DNA of 64,000 bases from Chrysophaeum taylorii. Its lineage: Eukaryota > Sar > Pelagophyceae > Pelagomonadales > Pelagomonadaceae. The notes beneath the pieces were generated by a model. That model was not told the origin of the DNA and did no database searches. It worked only from the letters and a program-made list of their open reading frames with translations. Where the stretch lies: positions 1 through 64,000 of the forward strand of contig JAQMWT010000091.1 in NCBI GenBank assembly GCA_029834535.1, given 5' to 3'. A program made the position numbers and the translations under genes. Below are positions 7,441 through 51,137 of the stretch, in pieces (the stretch's first letter is position 1; every line of letters begins with the position of its first letter).

Positions 7441-7447
7441 ATGACCT

Positions 7448-12004: not shown

Positions 12005-13211
12005 TCAGGAGTAGGATGCTGGAGCATGTAGAGGGGTACAGCTTGGACGAAACACGGATTTGTCCGTTTTCAGGGTTGACGACGTCGGCAATATGGTCAA
12101 CACGTGGGAGACGAGCGGGTTTGCGCGTTGGCGCAACATAGATATAAGTATTTGCGGCGGCACGGTTCCCTTTGTGGTGCTCGTGGGGTTCCAATAGAAG
12201 GTAGCATTCAGCGCCGAAGATCTTGAGCATGTCATGCTGCTCAGTTGATTGTAGAGTAGCTGTTGCGGACTCAGGATAGCATGGTGAATGCGCTCAAGCG
12301 TGGCGTTCGGGAGAAGGGTGTAGCTTTGGATGGTGTGTATCACCGCCCAGGGAAACATGATGGCTGGTTCCACGATATTGGAGCCACGATAATGAGCATT
12401 AAGGAGAGAGCGAAGGCGAGTTGAGGAGGCGGAGGCGATGAAGCCGATGGCTGACTCAACTTCAAAGTTAAAGTGGTGCATGTACGGCGGGAAAGCGATG
12501 AGCTGAATGCCCTTATCGACGCGGTACGGGGAGGTAATGTGCTGGCTAAAGTAGGGCTTGAAGGCATCGGAGTAGAGGGTGCGCAAGTGCACGTTGAGTT
12601 GTGTACGACAAAAGTCATACACAAAGTCCAGAGCTTGAGTGAACTCCGTGGCGTTGGTGGTGCGTGTAAAGTACACCAAGAGAAACTTCGAGATAAGTTC
12701 TTTGAACACAATGATATGAGTGAAGCCTCCCATTCTGACGGAATTGTCACATAGCCGCCGTCGCAAGCCCAGACTTCGCCGGCTTTGTGAGTTTGCTCAA
12801 AAAAAGGGCTTGGTCGGATTGAAGTGCTTGTGCGGGTGGCGCTTGTTGTGCGCGATGCAGTCGGTACATAAGTCGCGATACGGTAGGTCTGAGGCAGAGA
12901 AGCCAGGGCGAGCCAGTACGTTGGGGGCCTTGGCTGCAACGTTGTCCGGGCAGTGGTGCACCCTGTGGAAGCGATTGGCTCGTTCTTTGGCGTTGAGATA
13001 TTCAGCGGATCCGTGTGCGAAGGATTTGCGAGGAATGGGATGAGCGGGGATATGACGTTTGCGCCGAACATCGAACTTGAGTTCGGTGTCCAAGGCAGGA
13101 GGAGGCGGTGCGTCGTCATCCTGGTGCGCAGCAGGGTCACTTGGAGGTGCATCCTCATCATCACAAGTAGCGAGAGTATCTTCGTAGGACGAAGACATAT
13201 AGTTTAACGAC
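12005..13211 (-). pseudogene. Family 2 copia integrase, right copy
   Basis: Two overlapping frames on the minus strand. The N-terminal zinc finger region (HCPDN ... LCTDC) ends near 12,800 and is separated by a small indel at about 12,790 from the core. The core (12,766-12,005) runs from VRMGGFTHIIVFKELISKF through LYSDAFKPYFSQHIT to FEVESAIGFIA and keeps the second Asp and the Glu of the D-D-E triad. Upstream, the peptide TEMSLNYMS at 13,200-13,221 marks a candidate cleavage point between methyltransferase and integrase. Confidence 0.87.
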
Positions 13212-13221
13212 ATTTCGGTCA

Positions 13222-15519
13222 AGCAGTTGCTGGAGATAGAAGTCATGAAGGCTTGTGCCAAAGACAGGGTATCTGTGCTGCACGTGGTGGAGGCCGGATC
13301 AAAGGTCATGAAGGTGGATACATAGGGTTTCTTCATCACGGCAGCAGCATGTTGGAAGGTGGGGTCCAACATAAAGGATTTAATACCGGCAACGAGGAGC
13401 GAGAGGTGCTTGTACCGTGTGCTGTACGTACCGGCAGGCAGAGCATTGCTGAGCATATCGCTGCAAAGGTCGTGGCGAAGAGACAAGAGGAAAGACTCCT
13501 GTTGTTTGGTGTGGTTGTTAGCACGAATCAACTCCGGTCGAGTAGGATAGCGTAGTTTCCCGTTGCGAGGGTCGAGTAAGATAATGTTTGCATACCCTCG
13601 GACGGTGGGCAATGGAGCAAGCATGGAGTGGATTTTAGAGCCGAGTTTGCGGTCACTTCCACGAAGATACCCTATATAGCGACTATGGGATAAGTGGTAA
13701 TACCCTTACCCTGATCGCCGACTCCGGTTACGATGGAGGACGGTGCCTCATGAATCCTGAGCCTTGCGAGGGCATCCGCCCTCCCGGCGTAGGTTGGCAC
13801 CTATTCGCCTCCCGGGCGGGCCGGTTGGCAGCCGGAACGTTCGCAGTGGGACGGGGTATGGCCGGGGGGCGAAGACGGAAGGTTATCGACGAGTTGGTTG
13901 TCAGTCACATCGCGGTCTCCTCGTCGCATGGCGACAAGCTTGATGGTCACTCTCCGCCGACCGACCTTTCGGCGCTCCTCGTTTACAGGCCCGTGATTCC
14001 GGACTGGCTCCTGTCGGTCCGGCCTGGCTCCCATGCTCGGGAGAGGTCGGAAGTTAGTTAGTTAGTTAGGATAAGTGGTGATCTTCCAGAGCAAAATGAG
14101 AATCCTTGTAATCGAAAGAATTGTCGGTGGCCTTTAGGTAAGGCAGCCAGGCATCACAAGAGAGCATCTGGAAAAGAGCTTTTGTATGGCGGTGCCATAG
14201 GCGGCAGCGGAGCCAACTTGAGGAAGGGCTTGGATTATCCACAAGTAACCCATAAACGGCTCCAAATAAATAGATCTGTCTCTGTCGCGGGGGACGTTGG
14301 AGGCAGTAAACGTATACGTGCTTCCAAACGCGTCAATGGAAGCATGATATTTGGTGGCGGCGTTTTCTATGGTGAGGTTGCCGTCAGTGTGGTGGCCACC
14401 GGTTAAGAAGTAGGTGTTGTGTGATGTTGATGAGGTTGTAAGTAGTAACCTATGTGATGGTTGGTCAGTTTCGAAAACGGTTATGTAATAGGACACAGGA
14501 GTGGGTGAGTTAGTGTGCAATCTGGCGAACACGTTATATAGTATGGTGAAGGCCTTGACACGCAATGGATTAGTTGCATGTGGCAGTGGTTCCATGGAGG
14601 AGCGTTTGAAACACAGCTGATGATAAGTACACTCGGATCGAACAGAGTGCGTGCGTTGCTCGTGAGCCTGTTGTGAGTGAAGGCGGAGAAATAATTAATT
14701 GAGTGTTTCAAGGTCGGTCATAGTAAGCTGAACAGAACCTGTGCGAGAGTAAGGTGCAAACGTTTTAGGAACGGGGACATCTGGGGGATCGGGGAACACC
14801 CGGATCCAGTCTTTGGCAATATCCTTGGATAGCCAAAGTCGTTTAGGAATGGCTAGTATGTCATCCACGATCTTAAAGAAGGGGCGTGGGTGTTGGATAG
14901 GCCATGAAAGTATGTTGATTGGTCCAGTAGAGTACCTGCGTGCGATGCAGATCCATCTTTCCCTATATTGGTAGTCGCCACATAGGTAGGTCGGGAACCT
15001 GTCAACAACATCGACACAGTAATCGAGTGTGGCATGGATGAGGTTGGCCACAGTTATGTGGTCTTGATGACAGTACTTGTGGGGTGGTGTCATCTCAGCC
15101 AGTAGTACCAAGGGTTGGAGAAGCTTGATGACAGACAGCATGCTGTCGAACAGAGAGTCGTCGAGCAGGCTGTGTAAGTCTTCGGTCTTATGCTGCTTTA
15201 GTAGATTCCTGTTAGTGCATGGAGGAGTTATCTCAATAATATCGCAATAAAATTTGCGCCTTTCCTCTGGTGAGATTTGGTGAAGATGGTTGATAAAGGC
15301 GGGTAAAGATTCAAATAATAATACTGTAGGAAAACGGTGGCGTAACATGCGCACAAGCGTATCATCAGACTCAACAACAACTTTTACATTGATATTTAAG
15401 CCTAGGTCATTAGTGGCTTGAGACAGGAACGCTGGGGTTGACAAACCAGAACAAAGTAACATGACAGAGGGTTTGCGAAGATTGGGCTCTTGTGAGAGAA
15501 ACACTGGGCGAGAAAGCAT
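13222..15519 (-). pseudogene. Family 2 retrotransposon C5 cytosine methyltransferase, right copy
   Basis: Best view of the family 2 methyltransferase. The N-terminal frame (15,519-14,695, 274 aa) shows motif I VMLLCSGLSTPAF (residues about 19-31), VVVESD as motif II (48-52), motif IV ITPPCTNRN with catalytic Cys 101, motif VI as LLAEMTPP (Glu 142), and motif VIII YQYRERW (183-189). The C-terminal frame (from 13,624) shows YPTRPELIRANN as motif IX and SNALPAGTY as motif X. Between VIII and IX lies an extra segment of about 250-300 residues, which would contain the target recognition domain. It is interrupted by SINE-like copy A2 and a frameshift near 14,690. The start ATG touches the TGA of gag-protease. 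Confidence 0.88.
13698..14068 (+). mobile_element. SINE/LINE-tail element, type A (copy A2)
   Basis: Complete copy that starts near CCCTTACCCTGATCGCC and ends in GTTAGTTAGTTAG. It is flanked by the target-site duplication GGATAAGTGG at 13,688-13,697 and 14,069-14,078. About 370 bp long. The 3' part (GTGATTCCGGA...CTCGGGAGAGGT) is shared with type B copies. It sits in the methyltransferase gene at the same point as copy A1. Confidence 0.9.
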
Positions 15520-19155: not shown

Positions 19156-19159
19156 TCAA

Positions 19160-22100
19160 ATCATCTTGAATTCATCGATAAAATCATTGCTTCGAGTGAC
19201 ATGCATCTGTCTCAAAGCAGGTACCTTGGCTTCATCACATCTAGTGATAGAAAGATGGGCGCCAAAGTTCATTCTATTCACACCCCAACTCCCACCATTC
19301 GTGGATTTGCCAACATGATCCTTTACGATCTACGGCTTGATCGCATTCGACACTATTCAACTCGCGAACTGGCACGCGCCAATAACTTCACAGCGTACCA
19401 AATTAATTTCCCTCTGTCGTTGTCCCCGGACCTTTGCTGTGACATAATTGCTAATGCTATTCCTGCTGGAACCTATCACGTAATTTATACACACCTGTGT
19501 CAGATAGTCTATGATCTGCGCAAATTAATGTTATCACCATCTTTTGACCCTGATCACGCTTCTCTAACCAAAAACTATAGGTCAGCCTTTTTCACAAACA
19601 TATTTCCCACTGACACATCCTTAATATTAAACCAGAGTTATATCACAGTGTTATACATTTCTAATGAAGTCTTCCAATGTTGTGACAATATCTCTTCCAA
19701 CCACGAACTTCCACTATTTCATCTCGATTCAGTGGCTCACGTCTTCTTGTCTAACATCTCATCCGCAGATACATCATCTCCTACAAAATTGAAACATATT
19801 CCTCTCATAACTTCAAGAGAATTACATGAAAAACATGTTCATTTGACAGAAAAGTCCATGCCAGAGGCACTCTCGCGTTTCGAGACGCTCAGCGACGTGC
19901 TACCAATTTTCACAATATTCACCATTCTAGTGATTCCCAGGCTATAAAAGCTGTTCGGGTTATTGCCAGTCCGGGACATCATCCTTCAGATGTGCCCTAC
20001 CGTACGTTTTGTGTGGATTGTACCTTACATAAAAAACGTTTTCCTCATCCACATCATCTCACCAAGCAACCTTCATTTGAAAAAGTTTTTCAACCCGGTG
20101 AAGCCTGGGCATGTGATGGTGGTTACGTATCTGTCCTATCTGAATGGGGCTCCTTTCACCACATCACAGTCTTTAAATGTCTCATGTCTAAATTTTTGTT
20201 AGTGTACTTTTGTCGTACCACCAATGCCAGCGAATTTTGTAATGCCCTCGAGTTTGTTCGCAACTTTTGCTCCGCCTATGTTCATGTACAATTAGAACAA
20301 ATTTATTGTGACTCTTTTAGACCCTATTTGTCTCAACACGTTACTACTCCATTTCGTGTTGAACATGGTATTAATATGTCTGTTTTCCCTCCCTATTTAC
20401 ATGTGTTTAATCATTAAGTAGAAGCAGCTGTTGGTCATATCGCAACTGCTACGTCTAAACGACTCCGGCATGTGCTTAATGTATCCTATAAAGGCCACCC
20501 CCTAACAGATCCGGCACCACACTACCCGTGGGCTGTTCTACATGCTGTTCAATCGTACAATCTCCTTCCTAATGTTTCTCTCGAACGTATTTATAACAAA
20601 GTCCTAAGACCCAACAAGTCTTGTTGGACCAATGTAATGTTCCCCAACAAGATTACCTCAAACCGTTTGGTTCTGTTTGTTATTTGCATCTGGAATCTAA
20701 TGAATTTCATAAATATGAACCTCGATATCGTCCCCACATCTACTTATGTGGTGCTAATGTTATAAACCCTTTAATCACACCCCATGTTAACCACTTAGCT
20801 GGTGTTGTCCTCAATCCTGAGAACGGCCAAGTCCGTGTTTCTTCTAAACTTACCTTTCCTCATCTCACTTCTAAATCGCCTCCCGATTACGAACAACATC
20901 CCCCACCCGAACCTTCGCCCGACATACCCTTTTCTGTTCAAAGCACCCCCAGTGATGCGGAGCAGAGGGGGAATGCTATGTCCACCGACATTGAACACGA
21001 GAGGGGGACTCCTTCATCCCTCGCCCACGCTCCTACTCCCGTTCCCGCATGTGCTCCCGCTGCTTCTGCCCCCGCTGCTTCTGTCGCCACACCTCCGGCA
21101 TCTGAAGTGTCCTCCAACACTTTACCCCTTTTACCATCCTATCGGTCTCTCTATTCTCAAGATGTCCTTCGTCTCACCCGTGGTCCTAATCACCATCAAC
21201 CTCGTCGCAAGACTAATCTCAAGGCTGTCCTCATTCGTATTGCTTCGCCCACCGTTGCCGCTTATAAACAAGCTGGTGGTACGCTTGTCGACTTCAAGTA
21301 CGACCTCGCCAAGCAGCATATCACTTTCTGCGACCCCGCCCTCCACTCCCTTCATATTGCTCATGGCATCCACTGGACGGCTATACCTCCAGAGGGGGAA
21401 TTTACACAAACTCTTCATCATCATGTTTACCAAGCGCTATTCCAGTCTTCTTCTGATATGTGTCATAGGAGCCTTAGCCATTCGTCGACGGATGCCACTC
21501 CTGTTCATCTCATCGACGACCTCAGCCTCGCGGACTTTCACCTTCCTCGCGCTCTCGTTCATCTCATTTCCGAACACGCCCAAGCTCTTCGAGTTCCTCC
21601 CGCTCAATGTGCTTATGCTTTGTTAACGCCCCATTCTATTATGGATCATAATGATGCTTCTTATGGTTCCTCCGAGCCTCACCTCTCCGCCATCCAAGAC
21701 TACATTACTGTGCAGTTTCATTACTTTGATGCACACCTTGGAGATGACCCTCTACTAGCTATTCAACTTGTCGAAGATCCAGATCCCGCTCACACTAACG
21801 ATATGGTCGCTTCTTATACAATCATCCATCTTACCAACGCTCAAGATCCCAGCACTGTTGGTCCGGACGAATATAAAATTCAAGCCAAAGATATCAAGAT
21901 TGATGAATATGAGTTGACCTGCCTCAAAGGTCTCTGATGCTGATCGTAAGGCTTATATCTCCGCTATTTCCAATGAGATTTTTGACATTGTTAAGTTCGG
22001 CTGCTTTAAACTCTCGCTGCCTATGGTAAACTCCAAGCCCATTGATACCCGACTGGTATTACGTATAAAAACCAATGCTGCCGGTGAATACATCAAACAT

Positions 22101-22487
22101 AAAGCGAGATTGGTCCTACGAGGATTCTTAGCTTCGCTGGGCACTGACTTTTTTGACACATTTAGCCCAATGGCGCAGCTCACCGGTATCCGTTGTGTTC
22201 TGGCGCTTGCAGCCCACCTACGACTTCCCGTCTACCACATAGACGTTCCTAATGCTTTTGTTCAAGCTCCCATAGATTCTCATGTCTATGTTAAACTGCC
22301 ACAAGGTATTTACCTACTCGATCCTGAAGATGTAAAATATCAAGGGCGACGTCCCCCAAAACTATTTAAATCTCTTTGTGGATTACGACAGAGTCCTGCT
22401 CTTTGGAACCAAACCACAAATGGTTTCTTCGACACATTAGGCTATAAACGTTTTCGAACAGATACATGCATCTATGCTATATATATG
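19160..22487 (+). pseudogene. Family 1 copia pol fragment: methyltransferase C-terminus, integrase, RT
   Basis: Starts in the methyltransferase C-terminus: LEFIDKI, then MHLSQSRYLGFITSSDRK at 19,201, motif IX YSTRELARANNF near 19,350, and motif X IIANAIPAGTY near 19,450. Integrase follows (FCVDCTLHKK, WACDGGYV, IYCDSFRPY) with a stop at 20,416. A 438 aa frame (20,621-21,937) covers the linker and ends just before RT. RT resumes at 22,023 with KHKARLVLRGFLASLGTDFF, VYHIDVPNAFVQAPI and GLRQSPALWNQ, and stops at TDTCIYA, where an AT-rich junction joins the truncated LTR of the next element at 22,488. Several frameshifts make it non-functional. Confidence 0.87.
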
Positions 22488-23040
22488 GAGAGATTTGACC
22501 CTCTCCGGGTACATGGTAGAGACGGCGTGCAGTTTTTGGCGTGTACAGACCATTCCGCTTGTCACATGCTACTACACAAGGTAGGGATTTAGGCCCTAGC
22601 TTCTTAAGGACATTAGGTCCCATAGAAGCGTTCACACGGACAATGAGGAATGAAGCCTCCGCTAATTAAACAGACAACCCCATACCTGACGGTACGCACA
22701 TGGAGGTCTACTCCTTGTTGGAAGTGAACTGCAGATCTAATTCTTCATAATCTGAGATATAAGGGCGGAAGGGTAAGGAAGGAAAGAGGGAAAGCCGTCT
22801 GACGGAGAGAAAACCCTCTTGTGGAGATAGGTGTGAAAGGAGTGAGAAGTTCCAGTGTCGTACACATAATGTTGGAAGTGAACTGCAGATCTAATTCTTC
22901 ATAATCTGAGATATAAGGGCGGAAGGGTAAGGAAGGAAAGAGGGAAAGCCGTCTGACGGAGAGAAAACCCTCTTGTGGAGATAGGTGTGAAAGGAGTGAG
23001 AAGTTCCAGTGTCGTACACATAATAGTGTAGCTCTCTGGA
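22488..23040 (-). repeat. Family 1 3' LTR, truncated
   Basis: Matches the 5' LTR segment 34,848-35,246 in the same orientation. It begins (minus strand) with TCCAGAGAGCTACAC right after a purine tract and is cut at 22,488, at an imperfect hairpin (GGAGAG...CTCTCC). An AT-rich join there leads into the neighbouring RT fragment. It contains a 154 bp tandem duplication absent from the 5' LTR. Confidence 0.88.
22717..23024. repeat. 154 bp tandem duplication within 3' LTR
   Basis: Two adjacent copies (22,717-22,870 and 22,871-23,024), each starting GTTGGAAGTGAACTGCAG and ending TACACATAAT. The 5' LTR has one copy (from about 35,076), so the duplication arose after insertion or by later recombination. 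Confidence 0.92.
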
Positions 23041-23172: not shown

Positions 23173-25164
23173 TTAAGAGGTCGGGCGTGTTGTGATATTA
23201 CGTAAAGATGCGGTATCCGCAACATCAGATGTGTGGTCCAATTCATCCTCGCTATTATCTTCCAGTTCCTTTAACTCTGGAGAGGAAGAATCATGATCTT
23301 CGGAGGATTGGTCGTTAACTGTATTGTTCGTAGTCATAGCATCACTTAAGGTGACCAGGGGTGCCATAACAGACGAGAGGAAGGACATAGCTGCATCCGG
23401 TGTTAACGTATGTAGGTCCAATGCCGGAATAACATGATCCTGTGCATCAGACATAGCTGCATGTAAATTATGGGCTGCATCGTCGATTAGAGCTTGTTGT
23501 GCCTCGTCATATGTATTTGGAGGAAACTGTCCAATAGACGAAATAAGCGAGCGTGAAATTATGTGGACAAAGACAGCTAAGGTGGGTATCACGTTATCTT
23601 GATGCATCTGGAGGCTTGATAGTATGTTATCCAAGAGCGCGACGTGCTTAATGTTCTCGGTTACTTGAGTGTGTAGATTGTCGTAAGCTTCTTGTACCTG
23701 GGTTAAGTTCTTTAGCGCAACCGATAGCTGTTGATCTTTTGCCATCAATTGCTGTTCACTGTTAGTGAGACGTGAGGATAACGATTGAATCTCTTCTTTT
23801 AACTGGCGTAAAGATTCAACCATGTTATCATTAGATGTGTCTGGCGTGGACTCAGCGGATGGAGTTTCGACTGATGCTGGTGTTACACCTTCAGATAATG
23901 TATTATCTGAAAAGGCATCGATTATAGCGGAGGGATAGCCAACCTGGACTAGCACGTTTTTAAAAGAGGATTGGTGTTCCGGTGGAAGTTGGCGAAAGTA
24001 GTTAAGCATTGGCGGTACCGTCTCGGAAGAAGTCGCGTTAAGTTGGTGAGAGACGTCATTAACGAAGCGTTCAATGAGCACATTAAGTAGCTCATCAGGG
24101 TTGGTCACTACACAGGTTTTATCCTCAACAGATTGAAGTAATGACCAAGCCGCTACAAGAATCTCAAGATTGACATTCGAGATATAAGGAAGCTGTAACA
24201 AGAGAGGAGCATTGTCGTCAGGGTTAATGATGATTTTAGAGGCATCAACGTTACGACTCGCCATACAATGCATGAGCGCCTCTTTGAGCAGCTTGTTGAT
24301 AGCAATGGACTTTCCAAGGCGGAGAATGATAGCTCTCATGTGTGCAGCAGGATCATTATAACATGAAAGATGAAAAGATTGTTGGTTATTGCGAATTAAC
24401 GCTGTCCCATGTTGTGATAAGTTGCACATGACACAAATCAACAGAAAGAAGGGACGCGGTACGTCAAAACAGTGCGCGGCGTGTTGTTCAGACGCGAGAT
24501 GATCTTCGATAATTTTAGCGATTTTGTCCGTTTTAAGCTCATCTTCAGTGCATATAACGAGTACAAGGGGTGTACCCGGCGTATTGGTTTTATTATAGCA
24601 CCTGGTACACGCCACATGTACTTTGACAACCCCTTTAATGGGTGGGTATCGATGGAAGCGAATACCTTCATTGGGCGATATATTAGGGGCGTTCCGGATG
24701 CGCTTTGCCTTTACACATAGCAATGAACTCAAGAACTGGATATTGCCCACAAAATTTGTTTGTTGGGCTTCCGTAAGCAGCTGTTGAATGGACTGATGCC
24801 AACATTGAGGATCTTTAGGTGGTGGTAGTAGGAAGTTCGGTGGCTGGGTACCAAGTGACATGACGTTCCCTGACATCATCGCCATCAAATCGAATTTACA
24901 GTGCTTGAGCAGGAAGTACTCGGACTTTGCTGCTTGCGGTTTAGTTTGTTGTTGGACAGTTGATGACTTAGGCGTCACGGGCGTGGCCTGATTTCCTTGA
25001 GCAACCGAAAGGTATGTCTGGTGTCTCCGATTAGGAGAACTGGTTGGAGCAACGCCTGGATTTAACGCATTGAAAGGGGAAGATAATGATGACACGCCAC
25101 CGCGGCCACGGTTCAGTACCGAATAACGTCGGCTCGCAGCATCCTTGTTCTTTGTTGGGTTCAT
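23173..25164 (-). CDS. Third ORF of family 1 element, unknown function, coiled coil
   Basis: Intact 663 aa frame 3' of pol, where some LTR elements keep env or accessory genes. No family is recognised. Visible features: a basic, Ser/Gln-rich N-terminus (residues 1-80); a Cys/His cluster (ACTRCY at 185-190, ICVMCN 243-248, HLSC 265-268) that could bind zinc; a helical middle; a strong heptad-type coiled coil (about 447-520, from MVESLRQLKEEIQSLSSRL); and an acidic tail (about 620-645). There is no signal peptide or membrane segment, which argues against an envelope protein. A homologous broken copy follows family 2 Gag sequence at 36,721-38,448, so the ORF belongs to this element group. It could be a nucleic-acid binding or Gag-like accessory protein, but that is only inference. 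Confidence 0.85.
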   Translation of the reverse strand: MNPTKNKDAASRRYSVLNRGRGGVSSLSSPFNALNPGVAPTSSPNRRHQTYLSVAQGNQATPVTPKSSTVQQQTKPQAAKSEYFLLKHCKFDLMAMMSGNVMSLGTQPPNFLLPPPKDPQCWHQSIQQLLTEAQQTNFVGNIQFLSSLLCVKAKRIRNAPNISPNEGIRFHRYPPIKGVVKVHVACTRCYNKTNTPGTPLVLVICTEDELKTDKIAKIIEDHLASEQHAAHCFDVPRPFFLLICVMCNLSQHGTALIRNNQQSFHLSCYNDPAAHMRAIILRLGKSIAINKLLKEALMHCMASRNVDASKIIINPDDNAPLLLQLPYISNVNLEILVAAWSLLQSVEDKTCVVTNPDELLNVLIERFVNDVSHQLNATSSETVPPMLNYFRQLPPEHQSSFKNVLVQVGYPSAIIDAFSDNTLSEGVTPASVETPSAESTPDTSNDNMVESLRQLKEEIQSLSSRLTNSEQQLMAKDQQLSVALKNLTQVQEAYDNLHTQVTENIKHVALLDNILSSLQMHQDNVIPTLAVFVHIISRSLISSIGQFPPNTYDEAQQALIDDAAHNLHAAMSDAQDHVIPALDLHTLTPDAAMSFLSSVMAPLVTLSDAMTTNNTVNDQSSEDHDSSSPELKELEDNSEDELDHTSDVADTASLRNITTRPTS

Positions 25165-25279
25165 CTTAGAGAGATCCCCGCATTGCGCATTTCATTTCAT
25201 TTCACATTTTAGCGAGCCTTGGTTCCGTTGTATATGAGGGTTAGTTTAACGTCATTTCGGACATAGTGAAGGGTAAGGG

Positions 25280-28200
25280 TCAACCATCTTGCTGAGCTAT
25301 GGGTTGTTGTAAGCCAAGTAACGTGCGGAATCTGCTGAAGAGCGGAGCTCCGAAGGGTTTAGTAAATCCGTCAGCGATGTTTTGAGTCCCGGAAACATGA
25401 TGTAGACGTATACGTTTTAACTGTACGTAGTCACGAATACGGAACCAGCGTGTGCTGATAGCTTTGGCCTTAGTCGCACTGTCGGGATTATTTGATAGAT
25501 GGATAGCAGAAGCAGAATCCCCAAGTATAGGACTGTTACGTATGAACGACGTGTCCGATGGGAGCGGGTTGTCGTGAGCATCATAATCTAGTAACAGATC
25601 TTTCCCTGAAGGTTGACGAAGATAGTATTGAGGGTTTATAGCGAATGCCATTTCCGTTAACAATTTGCGTAACCAGACCACATCATCGGCACACATATTA
25701 AGGGCGATGAGTTCACTCTCATGCGTAGAAGTAGCGGTGATAGGCTGTAGTTTAGACTTCCAAGTGATGAGAGAACCGAACAAAAAGATGGCGTAGCCGG
25801 TTGTAGACTTGCGGTCTTGTTCATAAGAGGGTGCGTTATCGGCATCAACGAACGCGACCAATGGATCAAAGTTACCTGAATTGACTTGTTCTTTAGTGTA
25901 ATCCAACATGGTTGCCATATCAGTGCGATTGCCGATGAGAAGTCTAAGATGGTCCATTAGTGCGGAAGAGCCAGAGTAGTACCAGAGTCGAAGATTGCGA
26001 TTTTCGGGCTTGCGCAAATAGCGGAGAGTCCCTGTTAGTACTTGAACATGTAGAAATGCTGGATTATGCATTCCTCGGGAACAACGACTAAGGCTTTGGG
26101 ATAGATCAGGGCGACAGGCCAATTGTACAAAAGTGAGCTTGCCGAGTAAGGTGGAGAAAGTATGAAGAATAAACTTGTCCATATCAGAAGATGGCTCTCC
26201 AGTTTTATAAGTGGTTGATGGTGACATCGGTGTAGAAGTGGGACGTAACTGCATTAAAATGGGGTACTCTTCGAACAATGCATCAAGTTTAGCTTGACAG
26301 TCCAGTGAGATGGAACCGTCAGTAGTACGCGTGATGCGCATGCCTAAGAGAGTATGAACTTCTTCAAAGGTGTCGACTGAGTATTCCTTTTTCAGGGCTT
26401 GCTGGAATTCACGACGTAGAGTTTCCGAAGTGCAAGTGATAACAACGTCATCCACTGAGAGCGTGCAAATTAAAAATGTAGCGTCAGCTTGGACTTTAGC
26501 GTAAATGCACGTATCTGTTCGGAAGCGTGTATAGCCTAAAGAATCAAAGAAGCTATTTATAGTTTGATTCCAAAGGGCAGGACTTTGTCGTAATCCATAA
26601 AGAGATTTAAGTAGTTTTGGGAGACGACGGCCTTGATATTTGGTATCTTCAGGATCGAGAAGGTAAATACCTTGTGGCAGTTTAACATAGACATGAGAGT
26701 CTATGGGAGCTTGAACAAAAGCGTTAGGTACGTCGACGTGGTAGACGGGAAGTCGCAGATGGGCTGCTAGCGCCAGAACACAACGGATGCCAGTAAGCTG
26801 TGCCATAGGGCTGAATGTGTTGAAAAAATCGGTGCCCAGAGAAGCTAAGAATCCTCGTAGGACCAGGCGTGCTTTATGCTTGAGATATTGACCGGCAGCA
26901 TTGGTTTTTATACGTAGGACGAGGCGGGTGTCAATAGGCTTTGAGTTGACCATTGGCAACGCGAGTTTAAAGCAGCCAAACTTAACAATATCAAAAATCT
27001 CTTTGGAGATAGCGGAGATATAAGCTTTACGATCAGCGTCTGAGAGACCTTTGAGGCAGTTCAACTCATATTCATCAATTTTGATATCTTTGGCTTGAAT
27101 TTTATATTCGTCCGGACCAACAGTGCTGGGGTCGTGAGCCGTCGTAAGATGGGTAATTGCGTAAGAGGCGACCTGATCAGTAGTATGAGCATAATCGGGG
27201 TCTTCGACAAGTTGAACAATTAGTAGAGGAGCATCGCCAAAGTGGGCCTCAATGTAATGAGATTGCACGGTGATGTAGTCTTCGATGGCGGAGAGGTGAG
27301 GCTCGGAGGCACCATAAGAAGCGTCATTATGATCCAAAATGGAATGGGGTGTGAGCAAAGCATAAGCATATTGAGCGGGAGGAACTTGAAAAGCGTGAGC
27401 ATGTTCGGAAATGAGATGAACGAGAGCACGAGGAAGGTGAAAGTCTGTAAGGCTGAAGTCGTCGAAGAGATGAACAGGAGTGACATCCGGCAATGGATGG
27501 CTAAGGCTCCCATGACACAGAGCGGAAGAAGAGTGAGAAAGCGCTTGGTGAACGTGATGATGAAGGGATTGTGTAAATTCCCCCTCTGGAGGTATAGCCG
27601 TCCAGTGGATGCCATGAGCAATATGAAGGGAGTGGAGGGTGGGGTCGCAGAAAGTTATATACTGCTTGGAGAGGTCATACTTGAAGTCGGCAAGCGTACC
27701 ACCAGCTTGTTTATAAGCGGCAACAGTTGGCGAAGCAATACGAGTAAGAACGTCCTTGAGATTAGTCTTGCGACGAGGTTGAGGGTGATGAGGACCACGG
27801 GTGAGACGGAGGACATCCTGGGAATAGAGAGACCGATAAGATGGTAAAAGGGGCAAAGTGTTGGAGGACACTTCAGATGGAGGTGTGGTGGCGGAAGCAG
27901 CGGGTGCAGAAGCAGCTGGAGCACATGCGGGAACGGGAGAGGGAGCATGGGTAGGAGAAGAAGGAGTCCCCCTCTCGTGTTCAGTGTCGGTGGACATAGC
28001 ATTCCCCCTCTGCGCCGCATCATTGGGGGTGCTGTGAACAGAGAAGGGAATGTCGGGTGGAGGTGCGGGAGGTGGATGTTGTTCATAATCAGGAGGAGTT
28101 TTAGAAATGAGATGAGGAAAGGTAAGTTTAGAGGAGACACGGACTTGGCCGTTTTCAGGATTAAGGACAACATCGGCTAAATGATTAACATGGGGTGTTA

Positions 28201-28963
28201 TTAATGGGTTTATGACATTAGCACCACATAAGTAGATGTAAGGACGACATCGAGGCTCATATTTATGAAATTCGTTGGGTTCCAAATGCAAATAACAAAC
28301 AGAACCAAATGGTTTGAGGTAGTCCTGTTGGGGAACATTACATTGATCCAACAAAACTTGTTGGGGGCTTAGGACTTTATTATAAATACGTTCGAGGGAA
28401 ACGTTAGGAAGGAGATTATATGATTGGACAGCATGTATAACAGCCCACGGGTAGTGTGGTGCCGGATCTGTTAGGGGGTGACCTTTATAGGATACATTAA
28501 GCATATGCCGCAGTCGTGTAGACGCGGCAGTGGCTATGTGACCAACAGCGGCTTCTACTTCATGATTAAAGACATGTAAGTAAGGGGGAAAGGCAGACAT
28601 ATTAATACCGTGTTCAACACGAAAGGGAGTGGTAACATGTTGTGATAAGTAAGGTTTAAACGAATCACAATAAATTTGTTTTAGTTGTACATGAACATAA
28701 GTAGAACAAAAATTGCGGACAAACTCGAGGGCGTTACAAAATTCGCTAGAATTAGTGCTACGACAAAAGTACACTAACAAAAATTTAGAAATGAGACACT
28801 TAAAGACAATGATATGGCGAAAGGATCCCCATTCCGAGAGAACAGATACGTAACCACCGTCACATGCCCAGGCTTCACCAGGTTGAACAATTTTTTCGAA
28901 TGATGCTTGCTTGGTAAGATGGTGTGGATGAGGAAAGCGTTTTTTATGGATCGTACAATCCAC
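25280..28963 (-). CDS. Family 1 copia integrase core, reverse transcriptase and RNase H
   Basis: Intact 1,227 aa frame. The integrase core has Asp 35 (WACDGGYV), Asp 100 (IYCDSFKPY) and Glu 135 or 137 (NHEVEAAVG); the CDCT-type zinc ligand pair just before it is truncated by a frameshift at about 29,030-29,090. A proline-rich linker follows. RT shows KHKARLVLRGFLASLGTDFF, YHVDVPNAFVQ and catalytic LSVDDVVI near residue 836. RNase H shows VAFVDADN (about 1,039), STHESELIAL, LGDSASAI and SGTQNIADGFTK, with all acidic residues present. It converts element RNA to DNA and inserts it. The frame ends TGA at 25,282-25,280. It is the best preserved pol in the window. Confidence 0.94.
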   Translation of the reverse strand: MDCTIHKKRFPHPHHLTKQASFEKIVQPGEAWACDGGYVSVLSEWGSFRHIIVFKCLISKFLLVYFCRSTNSSEFCNALEFVRNFCSTYVHVQLKQIYCDSFKPYLSQHVTTPFRVEHGINMSAFPPYLHVFNHEVEAAVGHIATAASTRLRHMLNVSYKGHPLTDPAPHYPWAVIHAVQSYNLLPNVSLERIYNKVLSPQQVLLDQCNVPQQDYLKPFGSVCYLHLEPNEFHKYEPRCRPYIYLCGANVINPLITPHVNHLADVVLNPENGQVRVSSKLTFPHLISKTPPDYEQHPPPAPPPDIPFSVHSTPNDAAQRGNAMSTDTEHERGTPSSPTHAPSPVPACAPAASAPAASATTPPSEVSSNTLPLLPSYRSLYSQDVLRLTRGPHHPQPRRKTNLKDVLTRIASPTVAAYKQAGGTLADFKYDLSKQYITFCDPTLHSLHIAHGIHWTAIPPEGEFTQSLHHHVHQALSHSSSALCHGSLSHPLPDVTPVHLFDDFSLTDFHLPRALVHLISEHAHAFQVPPAQYAYALLTPHSILDHNDASYGASEPHLSAIEDYITVQSHYIEAHFGDAPLLIVQLVEDPDYAHTTDQVASYAITHLTTAHDPSTVGPDEYKIQAKDIKIDEYELNCLKGLSDADRKAYISAISKEIFDIVKFGCFKLALPMVNSKPIDTRLVLRIKTNAAGQYLKHKARLVLRGFLASLGTDFFNTFSPMAQLTGIRCVLALAAHLRLPVYHVDVPNAFVQAPIDSHVYVKLPQGIYLLDPEDTKYQGRRLPKLLKSLYGLRQSPALWNQTINSFFDSLGYTRFRTDTCIYAKVQADATFLICTLSVDDVVITCTSETLRREFQQALKKEYSVDTFEEVHTLLGMRITRTTDGSISLDCQAKLDALFEEYPILMQLRPTSTPMSPSTTYKTGEPSSDMDKFILHTFSTLLGKLTFVQLACRPDLSQSLSRCSRGMHNPAFLHVQVLTGTLRYLRKPENRNLRLWYYSGSSALMDHLRLLIGNRTDMATMLDYTKEQVNSGNFDPLVAFVDADNAPSYEQDRKSTTGYAIFLFGSLITWKSKLQPITATSTHESELIALNMCADDVVWLRKLLTEMAFAINPQYYLRQPSGKDLLLDYDAHDNPLPSDTSFIRNSPILGDSASAIHLSNNPDSATKAKAISTRWFRIRDYVQLKRIRLHHVSGTQNIADGFTKPFGAPLFSRFRTLLGLQQPIAQQDG

Positions 28964-31621
28964 GCAGAACTTACGGTAGGGTACATCAGAAGGATGATGT
29001 CCCGGACTGGCAATAACCTGAACAGCTTTTATAGCTTGAGAATCGCTAGAATGGTGGATGTTGTAAAGATTGGTAGCACGCTGTTGCGCATCTCGAAATG
29101 CGAGGGTGCCAACTGAACTTTTCTATCAGAGGGTGCATGCTTCTCATGGAGCTGTCTTGGAGTTATGAGAGGAGTGTTTCTCACTTTAGTAGGCGATGAT
29201 ATACCTGCGGATGAAGTGTTAGAGAGGGAGACGTGAGCTACTGAATCGAGATGAAAAGGTAGATGTTTGGGATTAGAGGTAAGATTGTCACAACATGAAA
29301 AGATTTTATTCGAAATGTATAACGCGGTAATGGAACTCTGGTGTAAAATTGAGGATGTGTCTGTAGGAAATAAATTAGTGAAAAAGGTTGACCTGTAATT
29401 TTTGGTTAGTGAAGCATGATCAGGGTCAAAGGATGGTGATAACGTTAATTTACGCAAGTCATAGACAATCCGACACAAATGTTTATAAATTACATGATAT
29501 GTTCCAGCCGGAATAGCATTAGCGATTATGTCACAGCATAGGTCCGGGGACAAAGACAAAAGAAAATTGATTTGGTACGCTGTGAAATTATTGGCGCGTG
29601 CCAATTCACGAGTTGAGTAATGTCGAATGCGATCGAGTCGTGGATCGTACAAGATCATGTTAGCAAACCCACGAATAGTAGGAGTGGGAGTGTATATAGA
29701 ATGAACTTTGGCGCCCATCTTCCTATCACTGGATGTGATGAAGCCAAGGTATCTGCTTTGAGACAGATGCATGTCACTTAGAGCAAAAATTTTATCGATA
29801 AATTCGAGACGATTTTCCTGAGGGTAGAAAACGAAAGAATCGTGAAGTACAGGTGAAGTATAGGAAACCAGTGTTTGTACTAGGCGACGCGTGTCTTGAT
29901 TGTCATTATTATGATGGTATGCTTGACAAAGCCAAAGAAAACCGGTAACAGGATCGAGAGAAGCAGTCTTGTCGATTCCGGTGTCATGTGTGAGGAAGGT
30001 ATAGGTTTCACCAAATGCATTTATATGTGCCTGGTATTTAGAAGAGGAGTTATAAACTGTAATGTCTCCACCTGTGTGTCTTCCACCGGTGATATAAATG
30101 ATGGAGGAAGTAGAGGAACTTTTTAAGAATAACCTGTGAGATGGTTGGTTAGATTCGATAGTTGTAATACGAAAGGAAACAGGTAATGTGATGGATTTTG
30201 GGAATAAGCGTCCCATAATATTATAGTAACTTAACTAACTTCAGACCTCTCCCGAGCATGGGAGCCAGGCGCCGGACAGGCAGGAGCCGATCCGGAATCA
30301 CAGAGGAAAATCGCGCAGTTGGGGCTGAGGCGAGGGACGAGGAGTCGTTGATGACGGACCGCCACTGCGCGCGGTCTTGTGCGAAGTCGTGCAAAAGCGT
30401 CGCAGGCCGCAAACGTGTTGGTCCACGAACAATCGACCTGTCCGTCGCGTTCTGCCCAACCGAGCGAACCCCATCCCAGCGCGGACTTTCCGGGTGCTAA
30501 CCGGCCAGCCCAGGAGGCGAGCAGGCACCGTCTCACTCCGGGACGGCCGGGGCCGCCGCAGGGAGCAAGCGTGTTAGGCGCCGTCCTCCATCGCAACCAA
30601 CGGTTAGCGATCGCAGGGTTATTATTTTACATAATATTATAGAGGAGCACAAAAGCTTTGAGTTTAATAGGAGATCTCATACAAGCAAGGAGCTTCCTGG
30701 AATTAGTTAAGAATCCTAAGCGGAAGTTAGAAATGCCCTCCATGTCATCTTGACTTGGATGTTCGACTGTTTTGTTTGAGTGTAGACGAAGAAACAACAT
30801 GGTTAAAGTTTCGAGCTCAGTAACTGTTAAGCGAACGGATCCTGTGCGACTGAAGCTATTATAAGTTTTGGGTGTAGACACGAATGGCATGTCAGGAAAG
30901 ACCTGCGTCCAAGGTTCGTCGACTATTAGCTTGCGACTGATGGAGTTAGCGTGATCTGCAATATCCAGGAAGGAAGTGACTCGTTTGTTAGGCCAGGAAA
31001 GTAAATCTAGATGGCCGGTGTTATATTTGCGTGCAACGAGGATCCATCTTTCTCTGGCTTGATAATCTCCACACAGATAGCATGGAAATCGGTCACATAT
31101 ATCCACCGTATAGTGCATCGTAGAGAAGATGAGATTAGCAACTCGTATATGGTCTTCATACGATGCGGAGTGTGGTGGCGTCATTTCCATAAAAAGAACA
31201 AGCGGCTTTAAAAGCTCAAGTACACTTAGAGCACTTGGAAACAAGGAGTCGTCCATATCACGCTCGAAAGTTGAAATGGATCGCCCATTGATTATGTTGC
31301 GATTTGTGCATGGGGATGTCAGTTCCACTATATCCGTGTAATATCTTGCACGTTCGGTGTCCGATGCGCGATGTAGATACGTGAGAAACTTGGGTAGTGA
31401 TGGAAAACTTCGATGGAATTACCAACACGTCTTCGTAGCATGTGCGTAAGATTTTCGTCGCTCTCAACAAGAACTTTAACGTTGATGTTGATTTGCAAGT
31501 CATTAGAAGCGCAAGCCAAGAAGGCAGGAGTGGACATCCCAGAACAAAGTAGTGTTACAGTAGGTGTTCGTGAACTTGGAGAAGTAGTTACTGTATGGAG
31601 TAAGCGTGTGGTAACCTTGCG
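28964..31621 (-). pseudogene. Family 1 retrotransposon C5 cytosine methyltransferase
   Basis: Follows gag-protease after an in-frame TGA. Motif I reads TLLCSGMSTPAF (about 31,530-31,565), motif II LVESDE, motif IV ELTSPCTNRN with the catalytic Cys near 31,305, motif VI LFMEMTPPH (about 31,180), and motif VIII YQARERW (about 31,045-31,065). RLTVTELETL lies near 30,820. After the SINE-like insertion the frame resumes at 30,216 and reaches motif IX YSTRELARANNF (about 29,600) and motif X IIANAIPAGTY (about 29,510). Damage is one frameshift near 31,410 and the insertion; removing the insertion with one target duplicate restores the frame. The last part, from about 29,200, contains the integrase approach (RQLHEKH) and a second frameshift. 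Confidence 0.9.
30227..30629 (-). mobile_element. SINE/LINE-tail element, type B (copy B1)
   Basis: 403 bp insertion with a short (TTAG)n tail, flanked by the 13 bp duplication CATAATATTATAG at 30,214-30,226 and 30,630-30,642. Removing 416 bp (element plus one duplicate) puts LLYNIM and GRLFPKS of the methyltransferase back in one frame, so the site was intact at insertion. One frame on the minus strand reads ATLLHDFAQDRAQWRSVI, which resembles the C-terminal end of non-LTR retrotransposon proteins. This suggests a 5'-truncated LINE or a SINE with a LINE tail. Confidence 0.92.
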
Positions 31622-34363
31622 TCATACAGGAGGTGCGAAGTGCTTGCGTATGTAAGGCAGCTGCGAATGCATTGACTCCAAGATGGTTTTGAGCCATGGT
31701 ACGTAAATTACGCGTTCAAGAAGGTTGGAATATAGCTTAAGCATTTCGCGTTGTTCGTTAAAAGCACTTAGTCTGAACTGTAATGAGCGAAGTTCCATTT
31801 TTCGAGCCTTTGCTTGTTGTAGCGAATAAATTGGGAGAGTAGGCAACAAATTGTTTAATCTAAACAAAGTGATCTTGACGTTGTCGTCAATTTTACTCTG
31901 GATAGATGATTGTCCTTTAAATTCAACCCCATAAAGATGTATACCAAGTTTATCTTCTCCCCATTGAGTCATGCTGATGATGTGCAGATCGGGATCGTTA
32001 TGGTCGTTTTGCTTGGGTAAGAAAAGCGCAACATCTAGCTTTACATATCCCACGTTCGGATGCTTTGGGAGAGCGGGAATGACGGTTCTTATAATCATGG
32101 CATGTGTGATACTCTGAGTATCCGTAGCAGTCTGGATAGCGGGTGACAAGGACTCGGGTAGTTTAACGATATGTATTGGATCAGCGTAACGTTTAAAATT
32201 AATTACATGTTGAGAGGCACACGTGTCAGCATATCCTGGCGTAGTCATTAGCGGTAAATTGTACTCATTGTACAGTTTAAGCATTGTTGCATAACAGGCA
32301 TGTGTCGAGCTTTGACCAAACACGTACTGTGTCATGAAACTTTGCGTTTGTTCGGAAGGCACAACGACGAGTGTAAAACCATTGTTTAATTTCGGTAGCA
32401 ACACAGGGGGATCTGTACCATCCTCATTATCTTCGTTGGGTTGATTGTTGGGGAGCTCGGAGTGCGAGGAAGTTTCCCGAGCTTGACGACGAACAATAGC
32501 ATTCTGGGCTTTAGCGTTTATGTGCTGCAGTAGCGGCTGAGGAATGTTATCGATTTCATCATCTTTGATCGATAGGAAAGTATGAAACATTTTTTCTGTT
32601 TCAGCAGCCCCCCTCTGCTCCGCATCACTGGGGGACGCTTCAGGAGCAGAAGTTTCAGCTTGATACTTTTCTTCTATAACATGAGATTCTTTATCGGCTT
32701 CTAAGAGGTTCGATATGGTATTGGACATGGTATCAACTCGAGATAAGTATAGATGAACTTGAGTAGCTTCGTCAGGATCTAAAGACTGTGTCGAAGCTTG
32801 AGAGGCGGTTGTCCAAAGGGTACTAAGTAAGCTCTTCATTTCCTCCTGTACCATTTTAGAATCGGTGGAAGGATTGGGATTCGCTTCCTGTAATTTACCA
32901 AACAGGTGGCGAAGACGATCAACTTGATAAGTAGCCCGGTCCATAAGAGACATGTTAGAGCGTGAGTTGCGGTTAGAGGAGTGTGAGTAGACAGGACGGT
33001 CGAAACTGGTGCCTTTAACGTTATAATTTGAAGGTGGACGATAGTAAGACGTATCACGAGGTGAAATTGTCGATGCTTTATCTTTTGCATTACGAAGCTT
33101 ACGAGCGTTAAAGCCAGACTGTCCAGCCACAGTAGCTAACAATGAGTAAGCATTGTTTAGAGAGTCGTGGGATTGATGAATAGTATCCATCAATAATACC
33201 TTAGGTGGCTTGGTAGCGGTAGTACCAGGGATGTATGGAATCCATGATGCGGGTTTATCCAAGCGTCGGTTAGATGAAAATTTTGTTTCATTATATATCT
33301 TTAACAAGAACTCCAATAACGGACGAACGTCGTTAGGATCAACTAGCTTTAAAACTTCAGGATCGTGAGTCGAGTTGTTCCCAGAGCGTGTCTCGTAGAG
33401 TTTACACCATTCTAATAAAGACTGAGAGTAGCGCTCGTGATCAGAGGGATTAGCATAGAGACGATAGATCTCCTCGTGAGCTTTGAGTGTGATTATGGAA
33501 TCATTAAATTGGATTGATGCTTCGTCATAATTTAATTGCTTTGCCTGAGTTTGGAAAGCAAGGAGTTGTTCGACAAATACATGAGCATACCAATTAACAT
33601 TTAAGGACATTCGATTAAACTGAGATTTAAGCTCAGTGACATCTGTACATGACACTGTCTCATAGTAATGGTAAGCTAAAAGCATTACTGCACGTAGTTT
33701 ATTAGGATGTGCAGTAAGTGCACAAATCTTCTTTAATTGAGGCCACATGGCGAGGGCAGGGCGTTCTTGCGATTCTAGATTGAAGAACGTGTACAGGAAA
33801 CCGGCGTAAGTTTCACAATGTTTGATCCAATCGGCATTAGAGAGACCTGTAAAGGATATGTTAGTTAGAGATGAGTCATACACAATTGATTTAGGGAATC
33901 GGGTATCTAATAAAGTGAGAACACGCTTAACATCCTCATTTAATTCGGGACGAACAAGATTGTATGACTCTTGAAAGAACAGTCGTTCGAGATTATTACG
34001 AACATCGACTGATAGTTGATGTGAAGAATTAACGTGCCAAGTTTTAAGATGATCAGGCAAGGCATCTTCATTAGGTAATTGTAATTCGTTAGCCTTTTCA
34101 GCTTTCCATTGAGCGAAAATGATATCAACTTCGTGTTCGAGAAGTTGGTTATACTCCGGAGCATTCCGGGTGTAAGCGTCATACGAATCAAAGCAGAACA
34201 ACGCGTCCACGTATGGACTTGTCATATGTCTGCGAAGCATTTCAATTTGGAGGCTTACTTTGGTTGAGTTGTCTTGGAAGCGCAATCCAGTTGTGAGTTT
34301 ATCAACAAGGATTTGTTCCTGTTTGCAAATATCCGTGGTGGATATTGGTTTTGGTTTTGACAT
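31622..34363 (-). CDS. Family 1 copia gag-protease
   Basis: Intact 913 aa frame from ATG 34,363 (MSKPKPISTTDICKQEQ). The first 400 residues are Gag, with a capsid-type helical region (NVNWYAHVFVEQLLAFQ); a Ser-rich and acidic part follows. No CCHC zinc knuckle is seen. The protease lies near residue 712 with YADTCASQHVI, where the expected Gly after D-T is Cys, followed by AIQTATDTQS and HPNVGYVKLDVALFLP. A PSDAEQRGAA peptide at about 32,600-32,640 recurs after integrase. The frame ends TGA followed by C; reading on past it gives the methyltransferase in the same frame, which suggests stop-codon readthrough. Confidence 0.92.
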   Translation of the reverse strand: MSKPKPISTTDICKQEQILVDKLTTGLRFQDNSTKVSLQIEMLRRHMTSPYVDALFCFDSYDAYTRNAPEYNQLLEHEVDIIFAQWKAEKANELQLPNEDALPDHLKTWHVNSSHQLSVDVRNNLERLFFQESYNLVRPELNEDVKRVLTLLDTRFPKSIVYDSSLTNISFTGLSNADWIKHCETYAGFLYTFFNLESQERPALAMWPQLKKICALTAHPNKLRAVMLLAYHYYETVSCTDVTELKSQFNRMSLNVNWYAHVFVEQLLAFQTQAKQLNYDEASIQFNDSIITLKAHEEIYRLYANPSDHERYSQSLLEWCKLYETRSGNNSTHDPEVLKLVDPNDVRPLLEFLLKIYNETKFSSNRRLDKPASWIPYIPGTTATKPPKVLLMDTIHQSHDSLNNAYSLLATVAGQSGFNARKLRNAKDKASTISPRDTSYYRPPSNYNVKGTSFDRPVYSHSSNRNSRSNMSLMDRATYQVDRLRHLFGKLQEANPNPSTDSKMVQEEMKSLLSTLWTTASQASTQSLDPDEATQVHLYLSRVDTMSNTISNLLEADKESHVIEEKYQAETSAPEASPSDAEQRGAAETEKMFHTFLSIKDDEIDNIPQPLLQHINAKAQNAIVRRQARETSSHSELPNNQPNEDNEDGTDPPVLLPKLNNGFTLVVVPSEQTQSFMTQYVFGQSSTHACYATMLKLYNEYNLPLMTTPGYADTCASQHVINFKRYADPIHIVKLPESLSPAIQTATDTQSITHAMIIRTVIPALPKHPNVGYVKLDVALFLPKQNDHNDPDLHIISMTQWGEDKLGIHLYGVEFKGQSSIQSKIDDNVKITLFRLNNLLPTLPIYSLQQAKARKMELRSLQFRLSAFNEQREMLKLYSNLLERVIYVPWLKTILESMHSQLPYIRKHFAPPV

Positions 34364-35246
34364 AGTCGTGACCTATGGAAAATAGGTTATAGGAAGGATA
34401 AAACAGGTTGACATGTTTGAATGAAGGGCTTCTAACATGTAGAAGAATATGTACAGTTCGCTATTTTAAGCGTGAGCTTATTTACAAGACCAAACAAAGC
34501 AACATGTCATTTAAACATGATGATTTGAGACTGAAGAATGGATTAATTCTCGAGCAGTCAGTCTTTTGTTGGGGAATGGAAGGAAAAACCCGTACAAGTT
34601 TCCGCGGCTTGTGTAGGAAAAATTTTAATTTTATTGGCTATGCGAGTGCATATGACCAGTGGCCGACCCAACTCGGTCACAAACCAGATTAACTGGGGGT
34701 CAAATACCGTCACACAACAGATATGTACAGTAGACCACCGCCAAACACATTGTCGCATTGTACTCGTAATCAGGCGTAAACTGATCACTCCATTATTCGC
34801 ACAACACAGTTGGGCTGACACACCTACGCATCTGGGCCCATAACCTGGAGAGATTTGACCCTCTCCGGGTACATGGTAGAGACTGCGTGCAGCATAGGCG
34901 TGTACAGACCATTCCGCTTGTCACATGCTACTACACAAGGTAGGGATTTAGGCCCTAACTTCTTAAGGACATTATGTCCCATAGAAGCGCTCACACTGAC
35001 AATGAGGAATGAAGCCACCATTAATTAAACAGACAACCCCATACCTGACGGTACGCACCTGGAGGTCTACTCCTTGTTGGAAGTGAACTGCAGATCTAAT
35101 TTCTTCATAATCCGAGATATAAGGGCGGAAGGGTCAGGAAGGAAAGAGGGAAAGCCGTCTGACGGAGAGAAAACCCTCTTGTGGAGATAGGTGTGAAAGG
35201 AGTGAGAAGTTCCAGTGTCGTACACATAATAGTGTAGCTCTCTGGA
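34364..35246 (-). repeat. Family 1 5' LTR and leader
   Basis: The outer end at 35,246 (TCCAGAGAGCTACAC on the minus strand) equals the start of the 3' LTR. The segment down to 34,848 matches the 3' LTR directly; below that it has no partner, because the 3' LTR is truncated. The inner boundary and primer binding site therefore cannot be fixed. Diverged LTR sequence of the same type is at 49,625-50,614 on the plus strand (shared ACCCGGAGAGGGTCAAATCT). Confidence 0.85.
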
Positions 35247-44680: not shown

Positions 44681-44688
44681 ATATCTTT

Positions 44689-51112: not shown

Positions 51113-51137
51113 CCTTACTACTAATCGACAGACGTTG

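Follow-up and report, generated by a model that had tools for sequence, protein, structure and literature searches.

DNA methyltransferase (DNMT) genes inside retrotransposons were described by de Mendoza et al. in 2018, in long interspersed nuclear elements (LINEs) and DIRS elements of Symbiodinium and in a Gypsy element of Klebsormidium (PMC5890265). The Symbiodinium DIRS enzyme carries out CG methylation, and Symbiodinium Copia elements are reported to be without any DNMT (PMC5890265). One sentence of a 2025 paper places DNMT3 members in 'LTR Copia and DIRS' and cites the 2018 paper (PMC12344493), but the long terminal repeat (LTR) element there is called Gypsy, not Copia (PMC5890265), and a 2019 paper names Gypsy and DIRS as carriers (PMC6338049). 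An Ectocarpus DNA transposon carries a methyltransferase of the N4C/N6A type (PMC12477816). Here, a stretch of 64,000 nucleotides from Chrysophaeum taylorii (assembly GCA_029834535.1, contig JAQMWT010000091.1, positions 1 to 64,000), called the window below, was analysed. It contains a Ty1/Copia element, family 1, with a C5-cytosine methyltransferase domain between Gag-protease and integrase, an arrangement which is new compared with the published LINE, DIRS and Gypsy cases. An earlier note on this DNA had mentioned captured DNMTs from dinoflagellates and charophytes; these are indeed published, but with LINE, DIRS and Gypsy elements as carriers. No other C5 methyltransferase in a Copia element was found among the matches listed from open-licence PMC papers, subscription papers and preprints lying outside that search.

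KnitGypsy-Dnmt3 of Klebsormidium nitens is likewise an LTR retrotransposon with a C5 methyltransferase in Pol under purifying selection, but it is a Gypsy element with a Dnmt3, a DIRS-like repeat arrangement and a charophyte host (PMC5890265). The elements described here are Ty1/Copia (RVT_2, integrase before reverse transcriptase) with direct LTRs and the enzyme between protease and integrase, and this enzyme, whose motifs VIII and IX are 308-334 residues apart, is not placed in a DNMT class. SymbioDIRS-Dnmt3 and SymbioLINE-Dnmt resemble them in the very many element-borne DNMTs of one algal genome, in conserved key residues and in purifying selection; the former is a tyrosine-recombinase DIRS element and the latter a non-LTR LINE with CpG-poor copies (PMC5890265), whereas the Copia elements here show no depletion relative to a methyltransferase-free Copia element. 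RVT_2 and the Copia order exclude the present elements from the Gypsy, DIRS and LINE groups of DNMT elements. CoDi elements are Copia elements of diatoms, which are photosynthetic stramenopiles. They are named in PMC9998398 and share with the present elements this combination of Copia type and host group, and no DNMT domain is mentioned for them in the excerpts of that paper.

Family 1 is a 12.8-kb Ty1/Copia element on the minus strand, bounded by LTRs at 34846-35246 and 22486-23040, with the following parts:

34846..35246, minus strand: 5' LTR, direct repeat with 22486-23040
34832..34845, minus strand: primer binding site GGTTATGGGCCCAG, adjoining the 5' LTR
31622..34372, minus strand: Gag-protease open reading frame (ORF), 916 aa, protease-like motif DTCASQHV at 32204-32227
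31622..31624, minus strand: TGA between Gag-protease and methyltransferase-Pol, next base C, in frame with the methyltransferase start
29440..31621, minus strand: C5-cytosine methyltransferase domain, motifs I-X with a long target recognition domain (TRD), assigned from motifs, homology via the protein P0004 and the family 2 fold
30271..30620, minus strand: insert of 350 nt resembling a short interspersed nuclear element (SINE), GTTA-type tail, splitting the TRD
25280..29122, minus strand: ORF for integrase, reverse transcriptase and RNase H, 1280 aa, RVT_2 E 4.1e-42
23173..25191, minus strand: extra 672-aa ORF 3' of RNase H, coiled-coil-like weak matches only
22486..23040, minus strand: 3' LTR with an internal 154-nt tandem duplication

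Identity between the two LTRs is 95.9% along 386 nt and 98.3% along a further 172 nt, and a G-rich polypurine tract lies directly upstream of the 3' LTR. The primer binding site GGTTATGGGCCCAG reads as the complement of the anticodon half of initiator tRNA-Met. RVT_2 scored above its cut-off in families 1 and 3 (the latter described below), with integrase upstream of reverse transcriptase; in this test of the Ty1/Copia order the rve (0.0057) and SH3_retrovirus (7.7e-5) scores of the family 1 Pol ORF were below their cut-offs, RNase H was assigned by position and the protease by motif or position. The order of protease, methyltransferase and integrase proposed in the earlier note holds as to position, and the protease in it is called by motif and position only, since the family 1 Gag-protease ORF had no Pfam match. 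Upstream of the methyltransferase a protease-like D-[ST]-C-A motif occurs in three window copies (32204-32227, 16099-16122 and 4732-4755), where Pfam likewise detected no protease. The usual protease motif is D-[ST]-G-A; the presumed motif of the window copies reads D-[ST]-C-A-[ST], and its family 3 counterpart IDGGAS.

A motif scan of the family 1 domain gave:

31520-31552, minus strand: motif I
31454-31477, minus strand: motif II
31296-31319, minus strand: motif IV, TSPCTNRN, with the catalytic Cys
31170-31190, minus strand: motif VI, MEMTPPH, with the catalytic Glu
31044-31076, minus strand: motif VIII, LCGDYQARERW (QxRxR)
29587-29625, minus strand: motif IX, RHYSTRELARANN
29497-29529, minus strand: motif X, IIANAIPAGTY

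Further copies of the domain in the window belong to a second family (family 2) or resemble family 1:

14137..15519, minus strand: family 2 minus copy, motifs I-VIII and first part of the TRD, one in-frame stop
13704..14069, minus strand: short insert in the TRD of this copy, reverse orientation, GTTA-type tail
13057..13696, minus strand: end of the TRD and motifs IX and X of this copy
5334..7446, plus strand: family 2 plus copy of the methyltransferase, broken by frame changes and stops
19159..19854, plus strand: third, family 1-like copy, end of the TRD, motifs IX and X, continuing into integrase
654..1733, minus strand: decayed family 1-like copy, end of the TRD, motif X, integrase

The family 2 minus copy is 54% identical to the family 1 methyltransferase over 267 residues, and its motifs lie at 15427-15459 (I), 15361-15384 (II), 15205-15228 (IV), 15079-15099 (VI), 14953-14985 (VIII), 13514-13555 (IX) and 13424-13456 (X), all on the minus strand. 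In the plus copy motifs I, II, IV, VI, VIII and X start at 5394, 5469, 5622, 5743, 5856 and 7294 (plus strand); motif IX was absent from the motif scan, its site being the break between two matched pieces. The ordered series of seven motifs claimed for all three copies was thus recovered for family 1 and the family 2 minus copy, and for the plus copy with the exception of motif IX. The long segment between motifs VIII and IX is also present, at 334 residues in the family 1 locus L040 and 308 in the family 3 locus L023, somewhat above the 250-300 given in the earlier note. The family 1-like copy at 19159..19854 is 83% identical to family 1. None of the window copies can make the enzyme: in family 1, motifs I-II are in one frame and motifs IV-VIII in another and the TRD carries the insert, and neither family 2 copy is intact.

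The identity of the enzyme in families 1 and 2 is supported indirectly, by a bridging protein and by the predicted fold of family 2. In family 3, a strongly diverged Copia family of the same genome, the Pfam profile of C5 methyltransferases, PF00145, scored above its curated cut-off in all three enzyme-bearing proteins scanned. A mixed-profile search found two MMETSP transcriptome proteins: P0003, just under the PF00145 cut-off, and P0004, which matches PF00145 (1.2e-10), family 1 (5e-25, along 248 residues) and family 3 (1e-9). A search with P0004 added seven relatives (P0005-P0011; three each from jgi and ena, and one from mmetsp), of which six passed the PF00145 cut-off, P0006 barely, and P0011 stayed just below. 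Phage records matched P0004 only weakly (seven matches, E 1e-3 to 8e-3); six of the seven carry a DNA or C5 methyltransferase annotation. In an alignment of 11 sequences 23 columns were invariant, including Pro-Cys, Glu and GD-Q-R-RW.

The structure model of a window family 2 ORF (pLDDT 56, pTM 0.59; best blocks 74-88) was compared with known structures, the fold test covering the N-terminal lobe of the enzyme. Foldseek returned 157 matches at E 0.001, the 50 listed among them all being C5-type methyltransferases as judged by title, and a second comparison by VIA-align had C5-type methyltransferases in all 50 rows listed. A class I methyltransferase fold of the C5 type is therefore predicted for this lobe, by a model which is not fully independent evidence because its alignment contains PF00145 relatives. 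A model of the TRD part alone reached pLDDT 37; a pattern in this part, GGRHTGGDIT, may resemble 2OG-Fe(II) oxygenases.

The top Foldseek match was human DNMT2, which is an RNA methyltransferase, and the domain might accordingly act on the packaged element RNA or on the tRNA primer, half an initiator tRNA-Met by the primer site. DNMT1, CMT and bacterial DNA enzymes match the model nearly as well, so the ranking does not separate substrates, and the very long TRD, with motifs VIII and IX separated by 308-334 residues, is unlike the short one of DNMT2. RNA methylation was considered for LINE elements by de Mendoza et al. (PMC5890265), and no mutational footprint at CpG was seen (below). Overall an RNA substrate is judged unlikely.

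Several results weigh against the identification as a C5 methyltransferase. The family 1 window piece reached only E 0.2 against PF00145, below the cut-off, and PF00145 was absent in all nine family 1 copies scanned. Direct comparisons of family 1 with family 3 were weak or not significant (blastp E 0.002; hhalign probability 0.2 of 100; hidden Markov model comparison E 0.03), and nine reversed-ORF decoys beat every family 1 and 2 sequence against the family 3 profile; homology between families 1 and 3 consequently rests on P0004. The profiles A1 and A7 retrieved no C5 methyltransferase from the PDB sequences (A1 nine chance matches, A7 none at 0.01), and the Foldseek and VIA-align rows do not point to one DNMT class. 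The Pfam scan of the window family 2 ORFs likewise contained no PF00145 match. Profile A3 gave one PDB match, a cytosine methyltransferase, at E 0.2; a single family 3 sequence had none in the PDB at E 1, and when the family 3 enzyme region was searched against proteins, nothing reached E 0.001. Searches of viral contigs with P0001, A7 and A8, and of bacterial and archaeal contigs with A8, gave no confirmed match. The profile search suggested in the earlier note thus leaves family 1 without a significant C5 match, a deficit outweighed only by the P0004 bridge and the fold.

Searches of the host assembly (70.8 Mb, 697 contigs) provided evidence of another kind. The 263-aa window piece of family 1 had at least 146 matches (145 scored of 966 candidates) and the family 2 piece at least 143 (141 scored of 1071 candidates), both counts being lower bounds biased toward the best matches; among the matches listed, 33 for family 1 and 32 for family 2 have a stop in the matched stretch, and 113 and 111 have none. 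Uninterrupted relatives of the window elements exist in the host genome: motifs IV-X are in a single frame in six (L037-L042) of 12 family 1 loci, which include the window copy L033, and in L040 this frame continues from the methyltransferase into integrase. Chance motifs or an assembly chimaera could be invoked for the weak Pfam score of the window piece. Both were ruled out by the 146 and 143 listed matches, the transcriptome and metagenome relatives and purifying selection, and chance also by the six open loci; a spurious origin is extremely improbable.

The PF00145 search of the host genome gave 57 places, i.e. L001, L002 and 55 others, 20 of which were fetched and examined and 35 left unread. 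All 20 match the protease and enzyme regions of family 3. The integrase region was matched in 16 and a same-strand reverse transcriptase in 12, the remaining loci being shortened or rearranged inside the fetched stretch; the four loci with no subsequent integrase match weigh against the proposed arrangement. In L023 a protease-like motif, enzyme, integrase and reverse transcriptase lie in one 1951-aa frame (PF00145 1.1e-7, RVT_2 1.6e-38). This 70.8-Mb genome holds many copies of methyltransferase-bearing Copia elements, from three families or more.

L002 (1006-3537) is a DNMT5-like host gene with an acidic N-terminus, matching PDB 7r76 at E 3.1e-129; this entry is titled Rad8, and we take it to be Cryptococcus DNMT5. 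Like the element enzyme it is a C5 methyltransferase with PF00145, but it lies outside the elements, and a small tree places it apart from the clade that the elements form with their relatives. This 18-row tree, in which Dnmt1, 2, 3 and 6 are not represented and long branches may join falsely, separated the elements and their relatives from L001, L002 and two phage enzymes with support 99/98 and placed family 3 as sister to families 1 and 2 plus relatives. L001 (1498-2577, contig C634) is a free-standing 360-aa C5 methyltransferase ORF (PF00145 E 4.1e-19) adjoining a light-harvesting match; 191 phage records match it, with 20-32% identity in the 25 listed. The genome also has 84 PF00504 matches to antenna proteins of the fucoxanthin type, one of which has a fucoxanthin chlorophyll a/c protein as top PDB match (E 2.4e-76); judged by these genes, the host is a photosynthetic, brown-pigmented fucoxanthin alga.

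This inventory also bears on whether the enzyme might act outside the particle on host chromatin or silencing, for example by marking or unbalancing host DNA so that the element escapes. The many copies and the DNMT5-like gene would fit such a role, as would the fact that of the 57 listed PF00145 places only L001 and L002 are known to be non-element, all 20 fetched others being elements. The enzyme is, however, part of Pol and has no ORF of its own, a position suggesting that it works in the particle, and action on the host is considered improbable.

All 32 loci compared (12 of family 1, 20 of family 3) retain the catalytic Cys, the catalytic Glu and the motif VIII Arg; the loss of Cys or Glu from all related copies, named in the earlier note as a possible refutation, was not encountered. 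Pairwise dN/dS of the whole enzyme had a median of 0.11 over 66 family 1 pairs and of 0.20 over 180 family 3 pairs; family 3 integrase (120 pairs) and reverse transcriptase (66 pairs) both gave 0.18. Pooled values were 0.145 for the family 1 enzyme and 0.297, 0.301 and 0.252 for enzyme, integrase and reverse transcriptase of family 3. A reservation applies to the residues and to dN/dS alike: the loci were chosen by similarity to the enzyme, favouring intact ones, and this lowers the dN/dS values. In motifs IX-X of family 1, outside the selecting query, dN/dS was 0.12, with 0.28 in the adjoining Gag end and integrase start. These ratios indicate that the enzyme is kept by purifying selection, and a captured, conserved C5 methyltransferase inside the Copia polyprotein is supported. 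A domain retained only as a non-catalytic, nucleic-acid-binding part of Pol, its chemistry a relic, would agree with the strong divergence seen in the missing Pfam match of families 1 and 2; the residues kept in 32 of 32 loci and the Pro-Cys, Glu and GD-Q-R-RW columns invariant in 11 aligned sequences speak against it, and we hold it to be quite improbable.

The TGA between Gag-protease and methyltransferase is followed by C in 11 of the 12 family 1 loci, the window copy included, L041 not being matched by the pattern. Both window family 2 copies also have a TGA at this junction (15520-15522 and 5331-5333). By its conservation it looks like a site of programmed readthrough in families 1 and 2. 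In family 2 an ATG stands directly 3' of the TGA, so reinitiation could occur there. In family 3, Gag and Pol of L023 are in overlapping frames, and the search for a slippery heptamer in this overlap found none.

We give a probability of about 0.5 to the reading that these elements are a Copia lineage with a fixed C5 DNA methyltransferase in Pol, which would be read through the TGA, packaged and used to mark the element's own cDNA. In this reading the enzyme is a fixed polyprotein domain between protease and integrase of a Ty1/Copia lineage. The data show the identity, position and abundance of the domain, its conserved catalytic residues, the purifying selection on it and the conserved stop, whereas readthrough, packaging, substrate and purpose are inferred. 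In families 1 and 2 a minority of ribosomes would most likely read through the TGA, so that enzyme, integrase and reverse transcriptase would be made jointly in small amount and packaged in the particle. There the enzyme would most likely methylate the element cDNA before or at integration. DNMT5 maintains methylation, and a new copy might arrive already marked, with host maintenance of the DNMT5 type carrying the mark on.

The sequence composition of the elements does not favour a lasting mark of this kind at CpG. C/T differences between the 12 family 1 loci were 0.074 at CpG vs 0.052 at CpC, 0.063 at CpA and 0.066 at CpT, and between 11 of the 20 family 3 loci 0.106 vs 0.091, 0.055 and 0.130, respectively, so they are not clearly raised at CpG in either family. 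The observed/expected ratio of CpG is 0.88-1.03 in the elements and 1.04 in the methyltransferase-free window Copia; two further stretches of the window have 1.17-1.22, and six host gene loci richer in G+C have 1.26-1.46. Beyond the methyltransferase-free Copia there is thus no depletion. A persistent mutagenic CpG mark was not seen, and the self-methylation suggested in the earlier note is, as regards CpG, unsupported so far. A transient mark, another sequence context, efficient repair or an RNA substrate would each be compatible with these values.

Other features of the window were also recorded. The 350-nt SINE-like element with a GTTA-type tail is present in three copies about 98% alike (30271-30620, 37989-38338 and 54152-54500), that in the family 1 TRD being flanked by a 13-bp target duplication CTATAATATTATG (30630-30642 and 30214-30226). 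A second short repeat with a (GTTA)n tail has four copies 81-97% alike (13704-14069, 35269-35632, 51830-52181 and 47893-48204); the one that interrupts the TRD in the minus copy of family 2 has an 11-bp duplication. Rfam and tRNA scans of the window gave no match. A coiled-coil-like ORF at 36706-37893, similar in appearance to the extra ORF of family 1, lies behind a Gag fragment (35620-36730); together they look like a shortened non-autonomous element in which only Gag and the extra ORF were retained. The methyltransferase-free Copia is a separate element at 40000-45400 with no recognised methyltransferase and with reverse transcriptase and RNase H regions 22-33% identical to family 1; a long 8-bp tandem repeat array is found at 51074-51435.

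Retrotransposons are commonly countered by DNA methylation, and elements which keep a methyltransferase of their own under selection therefore invert the usual logic; they offer a system for studying how jumping genes contend with the marks that usually silence them. It is conceivable, though doubtful, that a single ancient capture founded a Copia lineage with the methyltransferase as a core Pol domain, seeding de novo 5-methylcytosine in a host otherwise having only DNMT5-type maintenance; if true, the 'silencing' mark of this alga would be seeded by its own retrotransposons. Copia particles are well studied, so methylation of cDNA in the particle is directly testable. A Copia lineage with a DNMT, together with relatives in the marine protist transcriptomes of MMETSP, would mean that retrotransposons have captured DNMTs more widely than has been published.

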